Shown here: positions 19,185 to 25,718 of the stretch, piece after piece
How the letters are laid out: every line of letters begins with the position of its first letter
How positions within the stretch are numbered: position 1 is the stretch's first letter
Assembly: GCF_000153345.1 (NCBI RefSeq)
Contig: NZ_CH724125.1
Span: 1,865,374-1,900,090, forward strand
Direction of reading: 5' to 3'
Source of the DNA: Neptuniibacter caesariensis
Lineage (GTDB): Bacteria > Pseudomonadota > Gammaproteobacteria > Pseudomonadales > Balneatricaceae
DNA: 34,717 bases
Position numbers and translations under genes: made by a program
The notes under the pieces: generated by a model
What the model saw: the letters and a program-made list of their open reading frames with translations, nothing else
Databases searched by the model: none
Told to the model about the DNA's origin: nothing

Positions 19185-19355
19185 ATGTACTTTCACCGCG
19201 TATTGGTACTGCTTATTCCAGCGATTTACATGGTCTTACCACTCGTCATTGATAGCTGGCAGAGTGTAAACACCCCTTGGTATCTGCCTTTTATCGCCTG
19301 GCTATGCGTCATCATTCTGGCCTTCATTATTGAGAGGAGGCACAGGGATGTTTAG
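19185..19355 (+). CDS. cbrX: Small membrane protein CbrX, coupled to cbrA
   Basis: A 56-aa protein with two hydrophobic helices (about 6-22 and 32-49) and a basic tail ERRHRDV. It lies between gluQ and cbrA: the ATG is 2 bases after the gluQ stop, with GGAGAT as RBS. Its last codons overlap the cbrA start by 8 bases. The cbrA Shine-Dalgarno (AGGAGG) lies inside it. Pseudomonas has a similar small gene, cbrX, before cbrA, whose translation is coupled to cbrA (recalled). The sequence also resembles DUF3311 small subunits that accompany sodium:solute symporters (inferred). It may therefore aid the SLC5-like part of CbrA as well as set its translation. Confidence 0.85.
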   Translation: MYFHRVLVLLIPAIYMVLPLVIDSWQSVNTPWYLPFIAWLCVIILAFIIERRHRDV

Positions 19356-22275
19356 CTTACCCTGGTTAATATTAATTGGCGTCGCCTATCTGTTTTTTCT
19401 CTTCGGCACTGCCTACCTGACAGAACGTGGCATTCTACCCAAACGGATTGTCCGCAACCCTTACACCCACGTACTGTCCATTGGCGTTTATGCCACTGTC
19501 TGGACTTTCTATGGTGCCTTCGGCCTCGCACAGGAATCAGGGTATAACTTTTTAGGCTCCTACTTAGGGGCGGTCATTACCTTTGTCCTTGGTCCCGCAC
19601 TTCTGATACCGATCCTGCGTATTACCCGAACCTATCAATTAAGTTCACTCTCAGACCTTTTCGCTTTCCGCTTTCGCAGTGGCAGCGTGGGCACCTACAC
19701 AACGATCCTGTCGGTACTTGCTACCTTACCGATGCTATCCATTCAGATTCAGGCGGTAACCGATGCCATGTACCTGCTGAATGATCAATTCAGCGCTGAC
19801 CAGATCGGACTGGGCTTCTGTTTTGTCATTGCCCTGTTTTCTATATTGTTTGGCGCACGACATGCCTCATTAAGAACAAGTCATCAGGGGCTCATGGTCG
19901 CTATGGCTGTCGAATCGTTGATTAAGCTAGCCGCCCTACTCATCATCGCCTGTTTCGCAATTTTTGGAGTACTTGGCGGCATTTCTGGAGTAGAAGGGTT
20001 CATTATCAGCCACCCGGAAAGCATTCAACAACTTCAGGCACCGGTGAATAGTGAGGCATGGAGAACTTTGCTGTTGTCATTCTTTACCGCTGCGATTGTC
20101 ATGCCGCATATGTTTCATATGCTATTTACAGAAAATGCTTCCGATGAAACCCTCTATAAAGCCACCTGGGCAATGCCGCTATTTCTATTCCTGCTAGCTG
20201 CCGCTGTCCCACCCATTCTCTGGGCGGGTGAATCCCTTGGTGTTGGCGGTGAGGCTCAATTTATCATTCTCAACATGGGTTTGATGCTGGAATCAAGCTG
20301 GTTGACGATCCTGGCATTTATCGGCGGCTTATCCGCAGCAACAGGCATCATGATTGTCGCCACGGTTTCCATGGCTTCAATGGTACAAAACCACATCATT
20401 CTGCCGCTGATCCCAAAACCCAAAACACCCCGATTTTATGCCTGGCTCTTATGGCTACGCCGCAGCCTGATTATGGCGATGCTTCTGGCCAGCTACCTTT
20501 TCTACCGTCAGGTGGGCAATGACTATGATCTTCACCAAATGGGGGTCGTTGCGGTCGTCGCTTTCCTACAGTTTTTACCTGGTCTACTGGTCACGCTATT
20601 CTGGCCAAAGGCCAACCGATGGGGCCTGCTTTCCGGGCTCACCGTTGGCATGGGCATCTGGCTGTTCAATATGCTATTACCGCTTTTCGAGTCCCCTGCC
20701 CTGGAGATAACTCCTTTCAATCTGGACAATAACAATTGGGACCAGATCGCCATCTTTTCCCTGTTGCTAAATACAGTCGTAATGACTGCCGTCTCACTAT
20801 TGTTTAAACAGTCCGCAGAAGAGAGTAATGCAGCACAAGCGTGCCTTTGGAATGCTTTACAAAAACCCAGCGCAATTGACCTACGCGCCTCCCGCACCGA
20901 TGACTATGTCAATCTGCTCGCCAGCCGACTAGGTAGAAAAGCGGCGGAACGAGAGGTACAAAAAGCGCTGGAAGGGATGAATCTACAACCCGATACTATT
21001 CGCCCTGTAGACCTGCTTCGCCTCAGAACCGTTTTAGAGCAAAACCTGTCCGGTTTGCTGGGCCCCATTGAAGCCGCAGCGTTACTTGAACCGTTAGATC
21101 AACCAACTGATCCGATGGACTTCAAGGCCAGTAATGTTCATCTGATTGAAAACCAACTGGAAAACTATCAGGAGCAGCTAACTGGCCTGGCAGCCGAACT
21201 CGATGAAATGCGCCGTTACCACAGGCTAACCCTTCAGAAACTTCCTGTCGGTGTTTGCACTCTGGATACCGAAGGCAGAGTCTTGTTCTGGAACAACGAA
21301 ATGGCAAGGCTCACTCAACTAAGCGGCGATGAAATTATCGGCTCCCAGTTAACAGAAGAGCAGTCCCCCTGGTGCCAAACACTCTATGAATTTGCGCAAA
21401 CTGACATAGAACACCAAATCAGCCAGAAGCTGATTATTGCCGAGCATACCCACTGGTTTAGCCTGCACAAATCGATCTTAAAAGAGCGCCGAGATATAGG
21501 CATGGTGATTCTTCTTGAGGATGAAACCGACAATAAGTCGATGCAAGATAAACTCGCTCATAACGAACGCCTGGCTTCTATCGGCCGCTTCGCGGCCGGT
21601 GTTGCCCATGAGATAGGCAACCCGGTAACCGGTATCGCCTGCCTTGCGCAGAACCTGAAACTGGAAACAGGCAATGAGTATATTCTCGAAACCGGCGATC
21701 ATATTGTCGATCAGACTAAACGTATCAGCCGTATAGTGCAGTCTCTGGTTCGTTTTGCCCATGCCGGGAAGCCGGATGCTGACCGAGAACAACTCCCGGT
21801 TTCTCTGGCTCAATGTGCAGAAGAGGCAATCCACCTACTATCCCTTGATAGCCATGGTAAGCAACAAAACTATATCAATCAGATCCCTGATAATCTGCGC
21901 ATCAATGGTGATCCTCAACAGATACAGCAAGTCTTTGTGAACCTTCTGCAAAATGCCAGTGACGCCTCTGAGGATGGTGATGCAATCTGGTTAAATGCAG
22001 AGGAAAATACCGAAACAGTCACTCTGCGCGTCACCGACGAGGGCTGCGGAATTGAGGCAGAATCTCAAGACCGTTTATTCGAACCCTTCTTTACCACAAA
22101 AGACCCAGGTCAAGGAACCGGATTAGGACTCTCTTTGGTGTACAACATAATCGAAGAACATTATGGTAGTATTGAAATAATTAGCCCTGCCAACAACAAA
22201 CAGAAGAAAGGCACTCAAGTGGTAATAACGCTTCCAAGGTTGAAATGGACTGAAGATCCTGTCGACCTGGAATAG
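19348..22275 (+). CDS. cbrA: CbrA transporter-type sensor histidine kinase
   Basis: A 975-aa kinase that senses carbon/nitrogen status and phosphorylates CbrB. I start it at ATG 19348 behind a perfect AGGAGG; a TTG six codons upstream is unlikely. The N-terminal half is an SLC5/SSS-like transporter domain with about 13 membrane helices (1-490). Then come a STAC-like linker (about 510-590), a coiled coil, a PAS domain (about 630-730, VGVCTLDTEGRVLFWNNEMARL) and the kinase core. The phospho-accepting H754 lies in AHEIGNPVTG. The N-box is NLLQNASDAS (about 868), with DEGCGIE and GTGLGLSLV as G1/G2. CbrA of Pseudomonas is similar in size and layout. cbrB follows 19 bases after the stop. Confidence 0.96.
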   Translation: MFSLPWLILIGVAYLFFLFGTAYLTERGILPKRIVRNPYTHVLSIGVYATVWTFYGAFGLAQESGYNFLGSYLGAVITFVLGPALLIPILRITRTYQLSSLSDLFAFRFRSGSVGTYTTILSVLATLPMLSIQIQAVTDAMYLLNDQFSADQIGLGFCFVIALFSILFGARHASLRTSHQGLMVAMAVESLIKLAALLIIACFAIFGVLGGISGVEGFIISHPESIQQLQAPVNSEAWRTLLLSFFTAAIVMPHMFHMLFTENASDETLYKATWAMPLFLFLLAAAVPPILWAGESLGVGGEAQFIILNMGLMLESSWLTILAFIGGLSAATGIMIVATVSMASMVQNHIILPLIPKPKTPRFYAWLLWLRRSLIMAMLLASYLFYRQVGNDYDLHQMGVVAVVAFLQFLPGLLVTLFWPKANRWGLLSGLTVGMGIWLFNMLLPLFESPALEITPFNLDNNNWDQIAIFSLLLNTVVMTAVSLLFKQSAEESNAAQACLWNALQKPSAIDLRASRTDDYVNLLASRLGRKAAEREVQKALEGMNLQPDTIRPVDLLRLRTVLEQNLSGLLGPIEAAALLEPLDQPTDPMDFKASNVHLIENQLENYQEQLTGLAAELDEMRRYHRLTLQKLPVGVCTLDTEGRVLFWNNEMARLTQLSGDEIIGSQLTEEQSPWCQTLYEFAQTDIEHQISQKLIIAEHTHWFSLHKSILKERRDIGMVILLEDETDNKSMQDKLAHNERLASIGRFAAGVAHEIGNPVTGIACLAQNLKLETGNEYILETGDHIVDQTKRISRIVQSLVRFAHAGKPDADREQLPVSLAQCAEEAIHLLSLDSHGKQQNYINQIPDNLRINGDPQQIQQVFVNLLQNASDASEDGDAIWLNAEENTETVTLRVTDEGCGIEAESQDRLFEPFFTTKDPGQGTGLGLSLVYNIIEEHYGSIEIISPANNKQKKGTQVVITLPRLKWTEDPVDLE

Positions 22276-22294: not shown

Positions 22295-23683
22295 ATGAGC
22301 CGAATTCTGATTGTCGAAGACGAAACAATTATTAGATCTGCCCTACGCAGATTGCTTGAAAAAAATCACTTCCAGGTGGACGATGCAGCATCAGTCGATG
22401 AAGCCACCAGCCGATTTAAACTATCTGACTTTAACCTGATTATTAGCGACCTGCGCCTTCCTGGCGCCCCAGGTACTGACCTTATCGAGTTAGCTAAATC
22501 GGTCCCCGTTTTAATCATGACAAGCTATGCAAGCCTGCGCTCTGCGGTTGATGCGATGAAGATGGGTGCTGTCGATTACATAGCCAAGCCCTTTGATCAT
22601 GAGGAGATGATCTCATCGGTACAGAAGATTCTCGCTTCAAACAGCAATCAAACGACACCAATGCCAACTGAAGAAGAGCCAGGCTGCAACAAGGACAATT
22701 CCGAAATGTTTGGATCCTGCCCACCGATGCAGGAACTCTATAAACGTATTGGCAAAGTCGCGAAAACCTCAGCGACGGTTTTGATTCAGGGCGAATCCGG
22801 TACAGGTAAAGAGCTGGCTGCCCGGGCTATTCACGAGCAAAGCAACCGCGCCGATACGCCTATGATCTCGGTTAACTGCGCGGCTATTCCTGAAAGTCTG
22901 ATTGAGTCAGAACTGTTTGGTCATGAAAAAGGCTCCTTTACCGGCGCTTCAACAGCGCGAAGCGGCCTTCTGGAAGCCGCCGATGGAGGCACTCTGTTTC
23001 TCGATGAAATAGGTGAGCTACCCCTCGAAGCCCAGGCACGCCTGTTGCGCTTTCTTCAGGAAGGTGAGATCCGCCGGGTTGGATCGGTGCAATCTAAGAA
23101 AGTTGATGTCCGCTTAATCGCCGCTACACATCGAAATCTTAAAGAACTGGCGAAACGCAACGAATTCCGCGAAGACCTCTATTACCGTCTTTATGTTATG
23201 GAGTTAAGAATTCCTCCATTACGTGAACGGGGCAATGACATTCTGGAAATTGCCGACAAGCTGATGGACAAAGTCTGTGATCGGATGCAGATGGATAAAC
23301 TCTGTTTTGCTCCCGATACTCGAAATACCATGCTGACTTACAACTGGCCAGGTAATGTCAGAGAACTTGAAAACGCAATTGAGCGTGCTGCTATTCTGGC
23401 TGAATCTAATACCATCTCAACTGACCTACTTGGCCTAGACATCCCCAAAAGCAGTCTGGATGAACTGGAAAATCAGTTTGCCGCAATGAACAGTGAGCCA
23501 AACCAGCCACTCAGCAAAGAAGAGCAGGCCAACCTGTCTCTGGATGACTACTTCCAACGCTTCGTTCTGGAAAATCAGGATCAACTTAGCGAGACAGAAC
23601 TGGCTAAAAAGCTAGGGGTCAGTCGAAAATGCCTCTGGGAAAGAAGACAGAAATTAGGGATTCCCAGAAAGCCTAAAAAGTAG
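22295..23683 (+). CDS. cbrB: CbrB sigma-54-dependent response regulator
   Basis: Activates sigma-54 promoters when phosphorylated by CbrA. The receiver domain (1-110) has E8/D9, phospho-site D52 (SDLRLPG), T76 and K98. The AAA+ domain (about 140-375) has Walker A GESGTGKE (166-173), the sigma-54 contact loop GSFTGA (213-218; an A-to-S variant of GAFTGA) and Walker B LFLDEIG. The C-terminal FIS-type helix-turn-helix is ETELAKKLGVSRKCLWERR. It is 462 aa, close to Pseudomonas CbrB. It shares an operon with cbrA. Its predicted target, a CrcZ-like sRNA promoter, lies directly downstream. Confidence 0.97.
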   Translation: MSRILIVEDETIIRSALRRLLEKNHFQVDDAASVDEATSRFKLSDFNLIISDLRLPGAPGTDLIELAKSVPVLIMTSYASLRSAVDAMKMGAVDYIAKPFDHEEMISSVQKILASNSNQTTPMPTEEEPGCNKDNSEMFGSCPPMQELYKRIGKVAKTSATVLIQGESGTGKELAARAIHEQSNRADTPMISVNCAAIPESLIESELFGHEKGSFTGASTARSGLLEAADGGTLFLDEIGELPLEAQARLLRFLQEGEIRRVGSVQSKKVDVRLIAATHRNLKELAKRNEFREDLYYRLYVMELRIPPLRERGNDILEIADKLMDKVCDRMQMDKLCFAPDTRNTMLTYNWPGNVRELENAIERAAILAESNTISTDLLGLDIPKSSLDELENQFAAMNSEPNQPLSKEEQANLSLDDYFQRFVLENQDQLSETELAKKLGVSRKCLWERRQKLGIPRKPKK

Positions 23684-23736
23684 TCATTGAGGCTTTTACA
23701 ACGACTATAGCCTTTAGTTTAATGCAGCTTTTTTAA

Positions 23737-23832
23737 GTAACACTCTGGATACATTCAGGTAACACTTAAGTAACATTTCCAGTGTTACCTTACTACCCAC
23801 AACGCAGTACCAAAACGTAACAAGCGGTAACA
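23737..23832 (+). promoter_or_regulatory. Cluster of GTAACA/TGTTAC half-sites, probable CbrB enhancer
   Basis: GTAACA occurs at 23737, 23759, 23770, 23817 and 23827, and TGTTAC at 23783. Direct pairs are spaced 11 and 10 bases (one helical turn). The cluster ends 74 bases before the sigma-54 promoter, a usual distance for activator sites. GTAACA-type half-sites are known for CbrB at the Pseudomonas crcZ promoter (recalled). The flanking stretch 23684-23736 holds no clear cbrB terminator, only a weak AGGCT/AGCCT pairing and a T-run at 23729-23734. Confidence 0.75.
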
Positions 23833-23905
23833 AAACCTGTACAAAAGTAGGTAATAGAAACCGCTAAAAATCATAACCCATTGATTTTAAACAAAATAAA
23901 AAAAC

Positions 23906-23921
23906 TGGCACACGCCATGCA
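23906..23921 (+). promoter_or_regulatory. Sigma-54 promoter of the CrcZ-like RNA
   Basis: TGGCACACGCCATGCA shows GG and GC exactly 10 bases apart, and matches TGGCAC-N5-TTGCA except for one base in the -12 box. The start should be about 12 bases past the GC, near 23932. It stands downstream of the GTAACA cluster and of the gene for a sigma-54 activator. Confidence 0.8.
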
Positions 23922-23931
23922 ACATTAATAC

Positions 23932-24150
23932 GCGAAAACAAAAAGAAGCACGTTTCCGAATCTAGACCGCCAATAAAAATAAAAACTGGAATAGAGTAGA
24001 GAAGCACCCGCCTCGAATAAAAATAATAATGAGGTTTAGAAAGCTGGTCGTAACGAAGATGTGACGGTCATTTTGCTCTTAGAAAAAAAACAACAAGCTA
24101 AGAACTAGCGTTGTTACCTGAGATGCGATCAGCTCCCCATCTCCTCTTAA
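23932..24150 (+). ncRNA. crcZ: CrcZ-like Hfq/Crc-sequestering small RNA
   Basis: The 630-base cbrB-pcnB gap has no plausible protein gene. After the sigma-54 promoter come four A-rich elements of the AANAANAA type bound by Hfq with Crc: 23935-23948, 23972-23985 (AATAAAAATAAAAA), 24016-24030 (AATAAAAATAATAAT) and 24083-24096 (AAAAAAAACAACAA). The second and third sit between short complementary arms (CCA/TGG and CCTC/GAGG), so they may be shown in loops. The location between cbrB and pcnB is that of crcZ in P. aeruginosa (recalled). Predicted role: when CbrAB is active, the RNA soaks up Hfq-Crc and lifts catabolite repression. The 3' end is uncertain; a GAGATG/CATCTC hairpin (24120-24143) is only a weak terminator. 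Confidence 0.72.
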
Positions 24151-24196
24151 AATCTTGATCCAAACCTCCTAAAGCTCCCATAACAGTGTCCAACAA

Positions 24197-24205
24197 TGCT
24201 ATCAT
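24197..24205 (+). promoter_or_regulatory. Candidate extended -10 promoter of pcnB
   Basis: TGC followed by TATCAT gives an extended -10 element with a start near 24212. No -35 is visible. It would let pcnB be expressed apart from the upstream sRNA. Confidence 0.35.
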
Positions 24206-24314
24206 TGCGCACCCGATGTAATTAAGGACTGCTGTACAGGGGTTGACCCATATCCATCGATACAATCTCTTTACCCTCCTTAACTGTATTTAATCCTATT
24301 GAGAAGGCACCACC

Positions 24315-25718
24315 TTGCTTAAATCCATTAGCAACGCGCTGAACAAAGTCTTTGGCGGCGGTAACAGTAAACCAGACTCTCAGACTGAAGAGATCATCAC
24401 CACTGTCAGCAAGCGCCTGATCAATGAAGAAGAACATAAAATTTCTCGCCGCTTTCTCGATGATAATGCATTAAAGGTAGCCTACCGCCTGCAGGACGCA
24501 GGGTTCGAAGGCTATCTAGTCGGCGGCTGCATCCGTGATCTGCTATTAAAGAAACGCCCAAAAGATTTCGATGTTGCGACAGATGCGCACCCTGAAGAAG
24601 CTGCGGAACTGTTCCGTCGCGCCCGCCTGATTGGCCGACGCTTTAAACTCGTGCATGTACGCTTCGGCCGTGACCTAATTGAGGTTGCCACCTTCCGCGC
24701 CAGCCATGACTCCCAGTCTGAAGAGGGCGAGGGTGAACAGGGTAAACAATGCGATAGTGGTCTTATTTTACGTGACAATGTTTACGGCACGATCGAAGAT
24801 GATGCATTGCGCCGGGACTTTACTGTCAACGCACTTTACTACTGCCCTAAAGATCATTGCGTATATGATTTTGCCAACGGATATGAAGATCTGCAGAAGG
24901 GTATTCTGCGCATGATTGGCGATCCGGAAGCACGTTATAAAGAAGATCCAGTCCGTATGCTGCGTGCCGCTCGTTTTGCCGCTAAACTGGATTTCACTAT
25001 TGATCCTCAGTCTGAATTGCCCATTATCCCTCTGGCGCCCATGCTGAAACGCATAGCTCCTGCTCGGCTTTTTGATGAAGTACTAAAGCTTTTCCAATCA
25101 GGACACGCGGTTCAATCCTATGAACAACTACGCCGCCTGGAATTGTTTGAACCTCTCTTTCCTCTGGTCCATCGTACGCTTCAGCAAGAGCAGCTTGATG
25201 TTCCTTTGGAAAACCTGATTAATAACGCGCTTAAGAATACTGACCGCCGTCTGGCGCAGCGTAAGAGCGTAACCCCAGCATTCCTTTTTGCTGCCATTCT
25301 CTGGTACCCAACCCAGATTCGTATGCAGCAGCTCATGAAAGAGAAGAAAATGCCGCCTTTACCGGCCATGCATGAAGCGGCTAACGAGATTCTCGGAGAG
25401 CAGGTTAAATCCACAGCGATACCCAGACGCTTCTCAACACCCATTCGCGAAATTTGGGAGATGCAACTGCGTTTACCAAGGAGACAAGGTAACCGTGCCG
25501 CTCGATTGATGGAGCACCCGAGGTTCCGAGCAGCATATGACCTTCTACTGTTGAGAGAAAACAGCGGTGAGGATCTGGGCGGCTTAAGCCAGTGGTGGAC
25601 CGATTACCAAAATGCGAATGAGCAGAACCGCGATCAGATGATCAAACATCAAGGGTCGGATAAACCCAAACGCCCGCGCCGTCGCCGTAGCAAACCACGT
25701 AAAGAGACGCCTCAATGA
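24315..25718 (+). CDS. pcnB: Poly(A) polymerase I
   Basis: Adds 3' poly(A) tails that mark RNAs for decay. The nucleotidyltransferase core shows LVGGCIRDLLL with the metal-binding KDFDVATDA (about 83-91), then RLIGRRFKLVHV, TFRAS, RRDFTVNAL and YKEDPVRMLRAARFAAKL, all class II PAP/CCA motifs of the PcnB type. The C-terminus is highly basic (KPKRPRRRRSKPRK), typical of PcnB. At 467 aa it is normal. The start is TTG: an in-frame TGA lies 15 bases upstream and GAGAAGG gives an RBS. E. coli pcnB is also limited by a non-AUG start codon (recalled). folK overlaps the stop by ATGA. Confidence 0.97.
   Translation: MLKSISNALNKVFGGGNSKPDSQTEEIITTVSKRLINEEEHKISRRFLDDNALKVAYRLQDAGFEGYLVGGCIRDLLLKKRPKDFDVATDAHPEEAAELFRRARLIGRRFKLVHVRFGRDLIEVATFRASHDSQSEEGEGEQGKQCDSGLILRDNVYGTIEDDALRRDFTVNALYYCPKDHCVYDFANGYEDLQKGILRMIGDPEARYKEDPVRMLRAARFAAKLDFTIDPQSELPIIPLAPMLKRIAPARLFDEVLKLFQSGHAVQSYEQLRRLELFEPLFPLVHRTLQQEQLDVPLENLINNALKNTDRRLAQRKSVTPAFLFAAILWYPTQIRMQQLMKEKKMPPLPAMHEAANEILGEQVKSTAIPRRFSTPIREIWEMQLRLPRRQGNRAARLMEHPRFRAAYDLLLLRENSGEDLGGLSQWWTDYQNANEQNRDQMIKHQGSDKPKRPRRRRSKPRKETPQ

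Follow-up and report, generated by a model that had tools for sequence, protein, structure and literature searches.

What lies in the 631 bases between the stop codon of cbrB (23683) and the TTG start of pcnB (24315) in Neptuniibacter caesariensis? The window analysed here is a 34,717-nucleotide stretch of contig NZ_CH724125.1. The first-pass annotation had described a gap of about 630 bases without a convincing gene, and had proposed that positions 23932-24150 encode a CrcZ-type decoy RNA in a lineage outside Pseudomonas. The gap is indeed devoid of plus-strand ORFs of at least 20 aa, since all six ORFs of that length that overlap it are on the minus strand, and both its non-coding character and its position between cbrB and pcnB are those of the CrcZ class. 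From the sequence analyses described below, we consider it very probable that a CrcZ-type sRNA, a sponge for Hfq-Crc driven by CbrB and sigma-54, is encoded from 23932 to about 24134. The features of the locus are the following.

19330..22275, plus strand: cbrA, sensor kinase (PAS, HisKA and HATPase_c domains)
22295..23683, plus strand: cbrB, sigma-54-dependent response regulator (Response_reg and Sigma54_activat domains)
23737..23832, plus strand: six exact CbrB half-sites (GTAACA at 23737, 23759, 23770, 23817 and 23827; TGTTAC at 23783)
23874..23886, minus strand: exact sequence match to WATCAANNNNTTR, the IHF consensus
23906-23921, plus strand: predicted sigma-54 promoter TGGCACACGCCATGCA, with an exact GG-N10-GC box
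23932..24134, plus strand: candidate CrcZ-type sRNA core, about 203 nt, from the predicted start to the end of the closing stem
23937..23947, plus strand: A-rich tract 1 (AACAAAAAGAA), at the predicted 5' end, with almost no 5' flank
23972..23985, plus strand: A-rich tract 2, in the loop of SL1 (23961-23995)
24016..24029, plus strand: A-rich tract 3, in the loop of SL2 (24010-24035), whose stem covaries
24042..24051, plus strand: 5' arm of the long closing stem P3, eight pairs with 24125-24134 in the covariation count
24083..24096, plus strand: A-rich tract 4, in the loop of SL4 (24078-24102)
24125..24134, plus strand: 3' arm of P3, from the covariation count
24135..24165, plus strand: C-rich, G-poor tract, by its base composition a possible Rho loading site
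24315..25718, plus strand: pcnB, poly(A) polymerase (TIGR01942, 532 bits)

The sigma-54 box, already reported by the first-pass annotation, is the sole match to TGGCAC-N6-TGCW in the window (0.20 expected), and the predicted RNA start lies 12 bases past its GC. Because at least one such match appeared in 16 of 100 shuffles, the box by itself is only mildly unusual, and it is its conservation that makes it convincing. The CbrB half-sites and the IHF match, both absent from that annotation, lie upstream of it, and a sigma-54 box preceded by CbrB half-sites is the promoter arrangement of the CrcZ class; in P. putida, GTAACA and TGTTAC are described as the experimentally dissected CbrB subsites of crcZ and crcY (PMC6296734). 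A scan of 23600-24400 returned one sigma-70 promoter (1.5 expected) and no intrinsic terminator (0.9 expected). Within 300 bases after the predicted start there are exactly four non-overlapping AANAANAA tracts, the number claimed previously, and none on the opposite strand; dinucleotide shuffles lead one to expect 1.23 (P about 0.015, 200 shuffles). Several such sites on the transcribed strand are again typical of the CrcZ class. Taken by itself, then, the window sequence is modest evidence, and the frequencies of the box and of the tracts in shuffles are what could be said for a chance sigma-54 box in an A/T-rich spacer. That reading is refuted by the conservation, the covariation and the controls with 0 false matches presented below, and we give it practically no credence.

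To follow the locus through the family, 60 genomes were surveyed, of which 48, the window genome included, encode CbrB (E 1e-150 or better), and the DNA downstream of cbrB was read in all 48. The module is kept there in 45 of them: the sigma-54 box was found in 43 by the first pattern, and G035 and G036 were added with CGC in place of TGC. The gap copy has been lost in three of the four genomes of genus g9, two of which have dispersed copies; the third (G049, 71% complete) gave no match. pcnB follows further downstream in 44 of the 48 genomes, and in four genomes of genus g3 it lies beyond the stretch read. The 45 promoters contain 1-6 exact CbrB sites each (mean 4.02 vs 0.11 in shuffles); judged by eye, they frequently lie close to -80, -102 and -123 relative to the sigma-54 box. 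An IHF site with at most one mismatch is present in the last 100 nt of 36 of these 45 promoters, with a mean of 1.04 mismatches overall vs 1.96 in mononucleotide shuffles. The first 300 nt of each copy hold 3-8 A-rich tracts (43 copies counted) and the opposite strand 0-1, and the predicted start falls 1-6 nt ahead of tract 1 in 44 of the 45 copies and 17 nt ahead of it in the other.

The fold of the RNA is conserved as well. The structure alignment, a sequence-only MAFFT alignment, comprised 29 of the 45 family copies, with genera g6, g12, g14 and g15 and six further sequences omitted. Two covarying helices of 14 pairs in all emerged from it, in which 99.0% of the cells are standard pairs and 11 of the 14 pairs have changed on both sides. 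Four of the five covariation measures were reached by none of 500 shuffles and the fifth (further pair types) by 11. Slid versions of the helices had 24-42% paired cells vs the 99.0% of the actual ones, which are favoured in this comparison, having been derived from the same alignment. Selection thus acts at the RNA level on the sRNA core. The CTTAG/CTAAG pairs of SL4 form in 19-23 of the 29 aligned sequences, and in the window's own minimum-energy fold part of tract 4 is paired instead of looped; the window RNA (23932-24142) folds at -42.8 kcal/mol, with a z of -2.25.

The expectation that the A-rich motifs are partly held in hairpin loops was borne out for motifs 2-4. In a flank-swap test with the 45 family copies, a stem of at least 4 pairs enclosed tract 2 in 44/45, tract 3 in 44/45 and tract 4 in 41/43, and the mismatched flanks obtained by swapping gave stems at frequencies of 0.62, 0.87 and 0.55, respectively. 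Tract 1 has a spanning stem in just two of the 45 copies. Outside the family, stems around the tracts were found at 0.48 vs 0.34 in controls; in two f37 genomes the values were 0.92 vs 0.62, and in f7 hairpins are visible by eye. The hairpin display of A-rich sites is therefore strongest in the window's family and is not exclusive to it.

Tract 4 could be masked by pairing of its CAACAA with a GUUGUU further downstream, at 24110-24115 (24083-24115). GUUGUU or UUGUUG occurs within 45 nt in 13 of the 23 family RNAs with CAACAA in tract 4 vs 1 of the 22 without it (Fisher P 0.0002 over the 45 RNAs, with kinship ignored), and tract 4 is a possible bistable Hfq site.

Where does the RNA end? The interval proposed by the first-pass annotation agrees with the predicted start and with the end of the closing stem at 24134. 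In the 29 family members the first 30 nt past P3 average 42% C and 5% G, and a simple test found no intrinsic terminator within 150 nt past the closing stem in any of the 29; the transcript may end by Rho action and be trimmed back to the closing stem. With pcnB on the same strand, 383 nt downstream of the predicted start, and no intrinsic terminator found, the element could instead be a sigma-54-driven 5' leader of pcnB, controlling poly(A) polymerase, and not a free sRNA. The additional copies of the RNA bear on this. We built a covariance model, R1, from the 29 aligned family RNAs (its E-values are rough). R1 matches the window at 23959-24134 with 137.6 bits, the window copy being one of the 29 model sequences, and finds the RNA in 55 of the 60 family genomes, as a single copy in the window genome. 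Of its further matches, 22 in 20 regions were read and others (e.g. G008:C19, G023:C34) were left out; 13 of the 22 are in CbrB-bearing genomes, six in genomes without CbrB and three in genus g2. Among the 13, a sigma-54 box and CbrB sites accompany 12, and the remaining one is a partial second match in L202. Moreover, two or three complete promoter-plus-RNA modules stand in tandem downstream of cbrB in 8 of the 48 relatives (three in G018), where the upstream copy precedes another promoter and not pcnB (pcnB lies beyond the stretch read in four of the eight). A Gilvimarinus copy also appears by eye to end in a strong hairpin and T run; the Pseudomonas copies, likewise by eye, have a hairpin without a clear T run. 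Because tandem and dispersed copies have promoters of their own, a pcnB leader does not fit, and we regard it as a distinctly improbable explanation next to a free sRNA.

In two genera (G005 and G014) the RNA is longer, and ATATTTAAAGCGATCTGTTT is common to both on its 3' side:

L117 from 723, plus strand: longer RNA bearing ATATTTAAAGCGATCTGTTT
L118 from 708, reverse strand: longer RNA bearing ATATTTAAAGCGATCTGTTT

What surprises most is the wide occurrence of the circuit across the order. A 2022 review describes CbrAB as unique to Pseudomonadaceae (PMC8871633), and a 2018 regulon study likewise confines it to Pseudomonadaceae or pseudomonads (PMC6296734). CbrB orthologues (E 1e-150 or better) are nevertheless present in 171 of the 244 sampled genomes of the order and in 86 of 113 genera. 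Outside the family we examined 64 CbrB-bearing genomes from 32 families, made up of the 24 best matches with loci and 40 chosen for spread among the matches listed, and scored as a module a sigma-54 box followed by at least two A-rich tracts. From these listed matches, the module was found in 58 of the 64 genomes and in 31 of the 32 families, so that promoter, CbrB sites and A-rich motifs recur in relatives, as the first-pass annotation had required of a genuine element, and over a wider range than it had guessed. Family f21 is probably Pseudomonadaceae, because the Rfam CrcZ model scored above its cut-off in both f21 loci searched; without its nine genomes the module is present in 49/55 genomes and 30/31 families. 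Applied to all 112 gaps (64 and 48) with a CbrB-site condition, a detector of the same kind returned 103 modules on the forward strand, 0 on the reverse strand and 0 in 20 shuffles. Downstream of NtrC-type paralogues, where 41 of 74 loci offered enough sequence, it returned 0 of 41. Dropping the CbrB-site condition gave 103 forward, 1 reverse, 0.15 shuffled and 0 in the paralogue regions.

The module went undetected in six of the 64 genomes. Four (G257, G276, G108 and G066) show none; in G060 the gap is cut by a contig end, and in G065, where A-rich hairpins and CbrB sites are present, the box lacks the GC. Among ten named genomes searched, nine have CbrB and eight of the nine the module, including Oceanospirillum multiglobuliferum, Billgrantia bachuensis, Marinimicrobium agarilyticum, Gilvimarinus agarilyticus and a Bermanella MAG. 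Gammaproteobacteria 45_16_T64 (L286) has CbrB and no module within 1000 nt, and a Pseudomonadaceae MAG (L002) encodes a CbrB relative of 62% identity, but neither a box within 700 nt nor an Rfam CrcZ match was found. The Oceanospirillum and Billgrantia modules have ATTGTTTTGAATACGAGGCGGTC in common in their 3' part (about 645 nt after cbrB in L281 and about 565 nt in L288), which is perhaps a different conserved CrcZ domain.

A search with the Rfam CrcZ model, one of the checks suggested at the outset, went against the proposal: RF01675 gave 10.2 bits (E 2.2) here, where the cut-off is 95 bits, and the gathering-threshold scan of the window contained no match. The CrcZ family search of the window's own genome yielded none at E 1e-3, a weak result, as 14 controls also gave none, and R1 did not match Pseudomonas CrcZ (11 bits, E 0.86). 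We read the failure of the Rfam model as divergence. Over the order its score declines gradually, through 357 and 309 bits (f21), 102.5 (f2), 66.9 (f35) and 39 and 36 (f44, f20), to 27 bits or less, or no match, elsewhere (33 loci searched); three loci of the window's own family gave none. R1 scores of at least 90 bits are restricted to the window's family, and in 145 genomes of the order R1 matched 13, namely five family members and eight others at 28-40 bits. Homology to CrcZ is based on synteny and promoter, not on RNA sequence, and the RNA would most simply be a CrcZ orthologue that holds the CrcZ locus and works like CrcZ, although by sequence it falls outside RF01675.

Compared with its Pseudomonas counterpart, the window element has in common the cbrB-RNA-pcnB locus, the sigma-54 box, the CbrB half-sites, several A-rich sites, Crc and Hfq. 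Pseudomonas CrcZ has six A-rich sites in 407 nt (PMC4063720), whereas four are seen in the predicted 203-nt core of the window RNA. It is a variant CrcZ, with one site at the 5' end and the other three in hairpin loops of a compact core with a long covarying closing stem, and, unlike Pseudomonas CrcZ, it has no detected intrinsic terminator and its closing stem is followed by a C-rich tract. The extra copies with their own CbrB/sigma-54 promoters in some relatives parallel CrcY and CrcX, known from Pseudomonas and Azotobacter; as a difference, some relatives also have tandem copies directly after cbrB, and in the window genome R1 detects a single copy. The Gilvimarinus and Marinimicrobium modules match the window in locus, promoter and CbrB sites, but their RNAs are dense poly-AAN, 300 nt of which hold 14 and 13 non-overlapping motifs, respectively, and in Gilvimarinus and its kin (four genomes; f16, f17, f22) hairpins rarely span the tracts (0.28 vs 0.17 in controls).

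In the open-licence literature searched we recognised no report of CrcZ outside Pseudomonas or Azotobacter. In the accessible part of an Acinetobacter Crc paper (PMC8312277) CrcZ is mentioned in two reference titles only, a term search of PMC13022988 was without match, and a marine metatranscriptome study mentions cbrAB transcripts without placing them in the portion available (PMC5073097).

A CrcZ-type circuit also needs its partners, and the check for crc and hfq suggested by the first-pass annotation was positive: as in the CrcZ class, the genome encodes CbrA, CbrB, RpoN and Hfq, together with a Crc that has lost nuclease residues. The window CbrB shares 62-67% identity with its counterparts in Pseudomonas, Serpens, Gilvimarinus and Oceanospirillum. 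CbrA is 47% identical over residues 8-970 to the product of the gene upstream of cbrB in P. fildesensis; despite this identity to the Pseudomonas protein, Pfam at E 1e-3 detected no solute-symporter domain in it. The Crc homologue, flanked by genes that by eye resemble rph and pyrE, is 46% identical to P. aeruginosa Crc:

L111:1504-2301, minus strand: Crc homologue, above the NCBIfam cut-off for exodeoxyribonuclease III

In the alignment with the exonuclease 2jc5, it has T and H at the D and N (GDWN to GTTH) that we take to be catalytic. Since these nuclease-site residues are replaced, the NCBIfam name may mislead and may hide Crc in annotations. A Crc match is present in 58 of the 60 family genomes, and 30 of the family sequences were examined by residue. 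A78, K135, R138, R140, R141 and R229, which are among the contact or interface residues reported for Crc (PMC6422490), are identical in 30/30. Counting against the sponge reading, other residues named in that paper vary: E142 is E or D (D in 16/30), K mostly replaces R196, R230 and R233, and E193, K155, M156 and F231 lack conservation.

The family genomes without CbrB are informative about the promoter. G055 and five genomes of g4 have no CbrB at E 1e-150 and keep the RNA, with four tracts in 6/6. Their gene order is dksA-gluQRS-RNA-pcnB-folK-panB (the L198 contig breaks off after the RNA), with neither cbrA nor cbrB between gluQRS and pcnB. In none of the six do the 300 nt before the RNA contain a sigma-54 box or exact CbrB sites. 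All six have there a sigma-70-like promoter matching 9-10 of 12 positions, whose -10 box ends 8-10 nt before tract 1 (single-sequence shuffle P 0.01-0.10); a score of at least 9 at that place occurs in just 3 of the 45 sigma-54 copies. Crc is kept in all six. Of the other six CbrB-less family genomes, three gave no R1 match and the three of genus g2 (L199-L201) short weak ones, at 31-34 bits, in a different gene context and without a sigma-54 box.

The presence of Crc in genomes without CbrB counts against the circuit and, together with the persistence of the RNA without CbrAB, would suit an RNA that binds Hfq and not Hfq-Crc, either as a general Hfq titrator or as an Hfq-dependent antisense sRNA; the A-rich tracts need just the distal face of Hfq. 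However, this genome has a Crc that keeps most of the basic residues that contact RNA and Hfq, and the stereotyped multi-site design would suit a sponge better than a seed-pairing sRNA. We hold binding of Hfq without Crc to be unlikely. For the Hfq-Crc sponge, the history that we favour with fair confidence is that the CbrAB-CrcZ-Hfq/Crc switch is ancestral to the order, with a fast-evolving RNA while promoter, A-rich sites and locus stay. The family form would be a four-site sponge with three sites on hairpin loops, tandem in some genera, that outlived the lost cbrAB through a sigma-70 promoter at the same start.

We propose the following mechanism. On poor carbon sources, activated CbrB would bind the GTAACA/TGTTAC sites, IHF would bend the promoter DNA and sigma-54 polymerase would start at about 23932. 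The resulting RNA would draw Hfq with Crc off the mRNAs whose ribosome sites Hfq-Crc blocks, and so derepress them. If this is true, many non-Pseudomonas lineages, among them Oceanospirillum, Billgrantia and Gilvimarinus, use a CbrB-driven RNA decoy in their Hfq-Crc catabolite control. In its hairpin form the RNA would be a natural Hfq sponge whose sites can be counted, and the exchanged promoter in genomes without cbrAB allows a direct test of how the sRNA is uncoupled from the two-component system.

A search for targets covered 310 genes, taken from home-made gene calls on 20 stretches of 20 kb (400 kb in all) of the window's own genome. AANAANAA peaks at -40 to -20 from the start codons (33 counts). 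In these 310 genes, A-rich tracts near start codons were no commoner than composition-matched permutations of the motif: it occurred in 8 genes inside the region and 12 in the five outside bins, and several permutations did equally well or better. The test thus gives no support for Hfq/Crc targeting. Among the eight genes inside are, as an anecdote, two porin-like proteins and one periplasmic binding-like protein, named by eye.

Finally, the Rfam match to the P36 'sRNA' just after cbrB in Pseudomonas (L001 5477-5537) covers TGTTAC, GTAACA and GTAACG. The P36 family may therefore model the crcZ enhancer, that is, the CbrB half-sites, and not an RNA.
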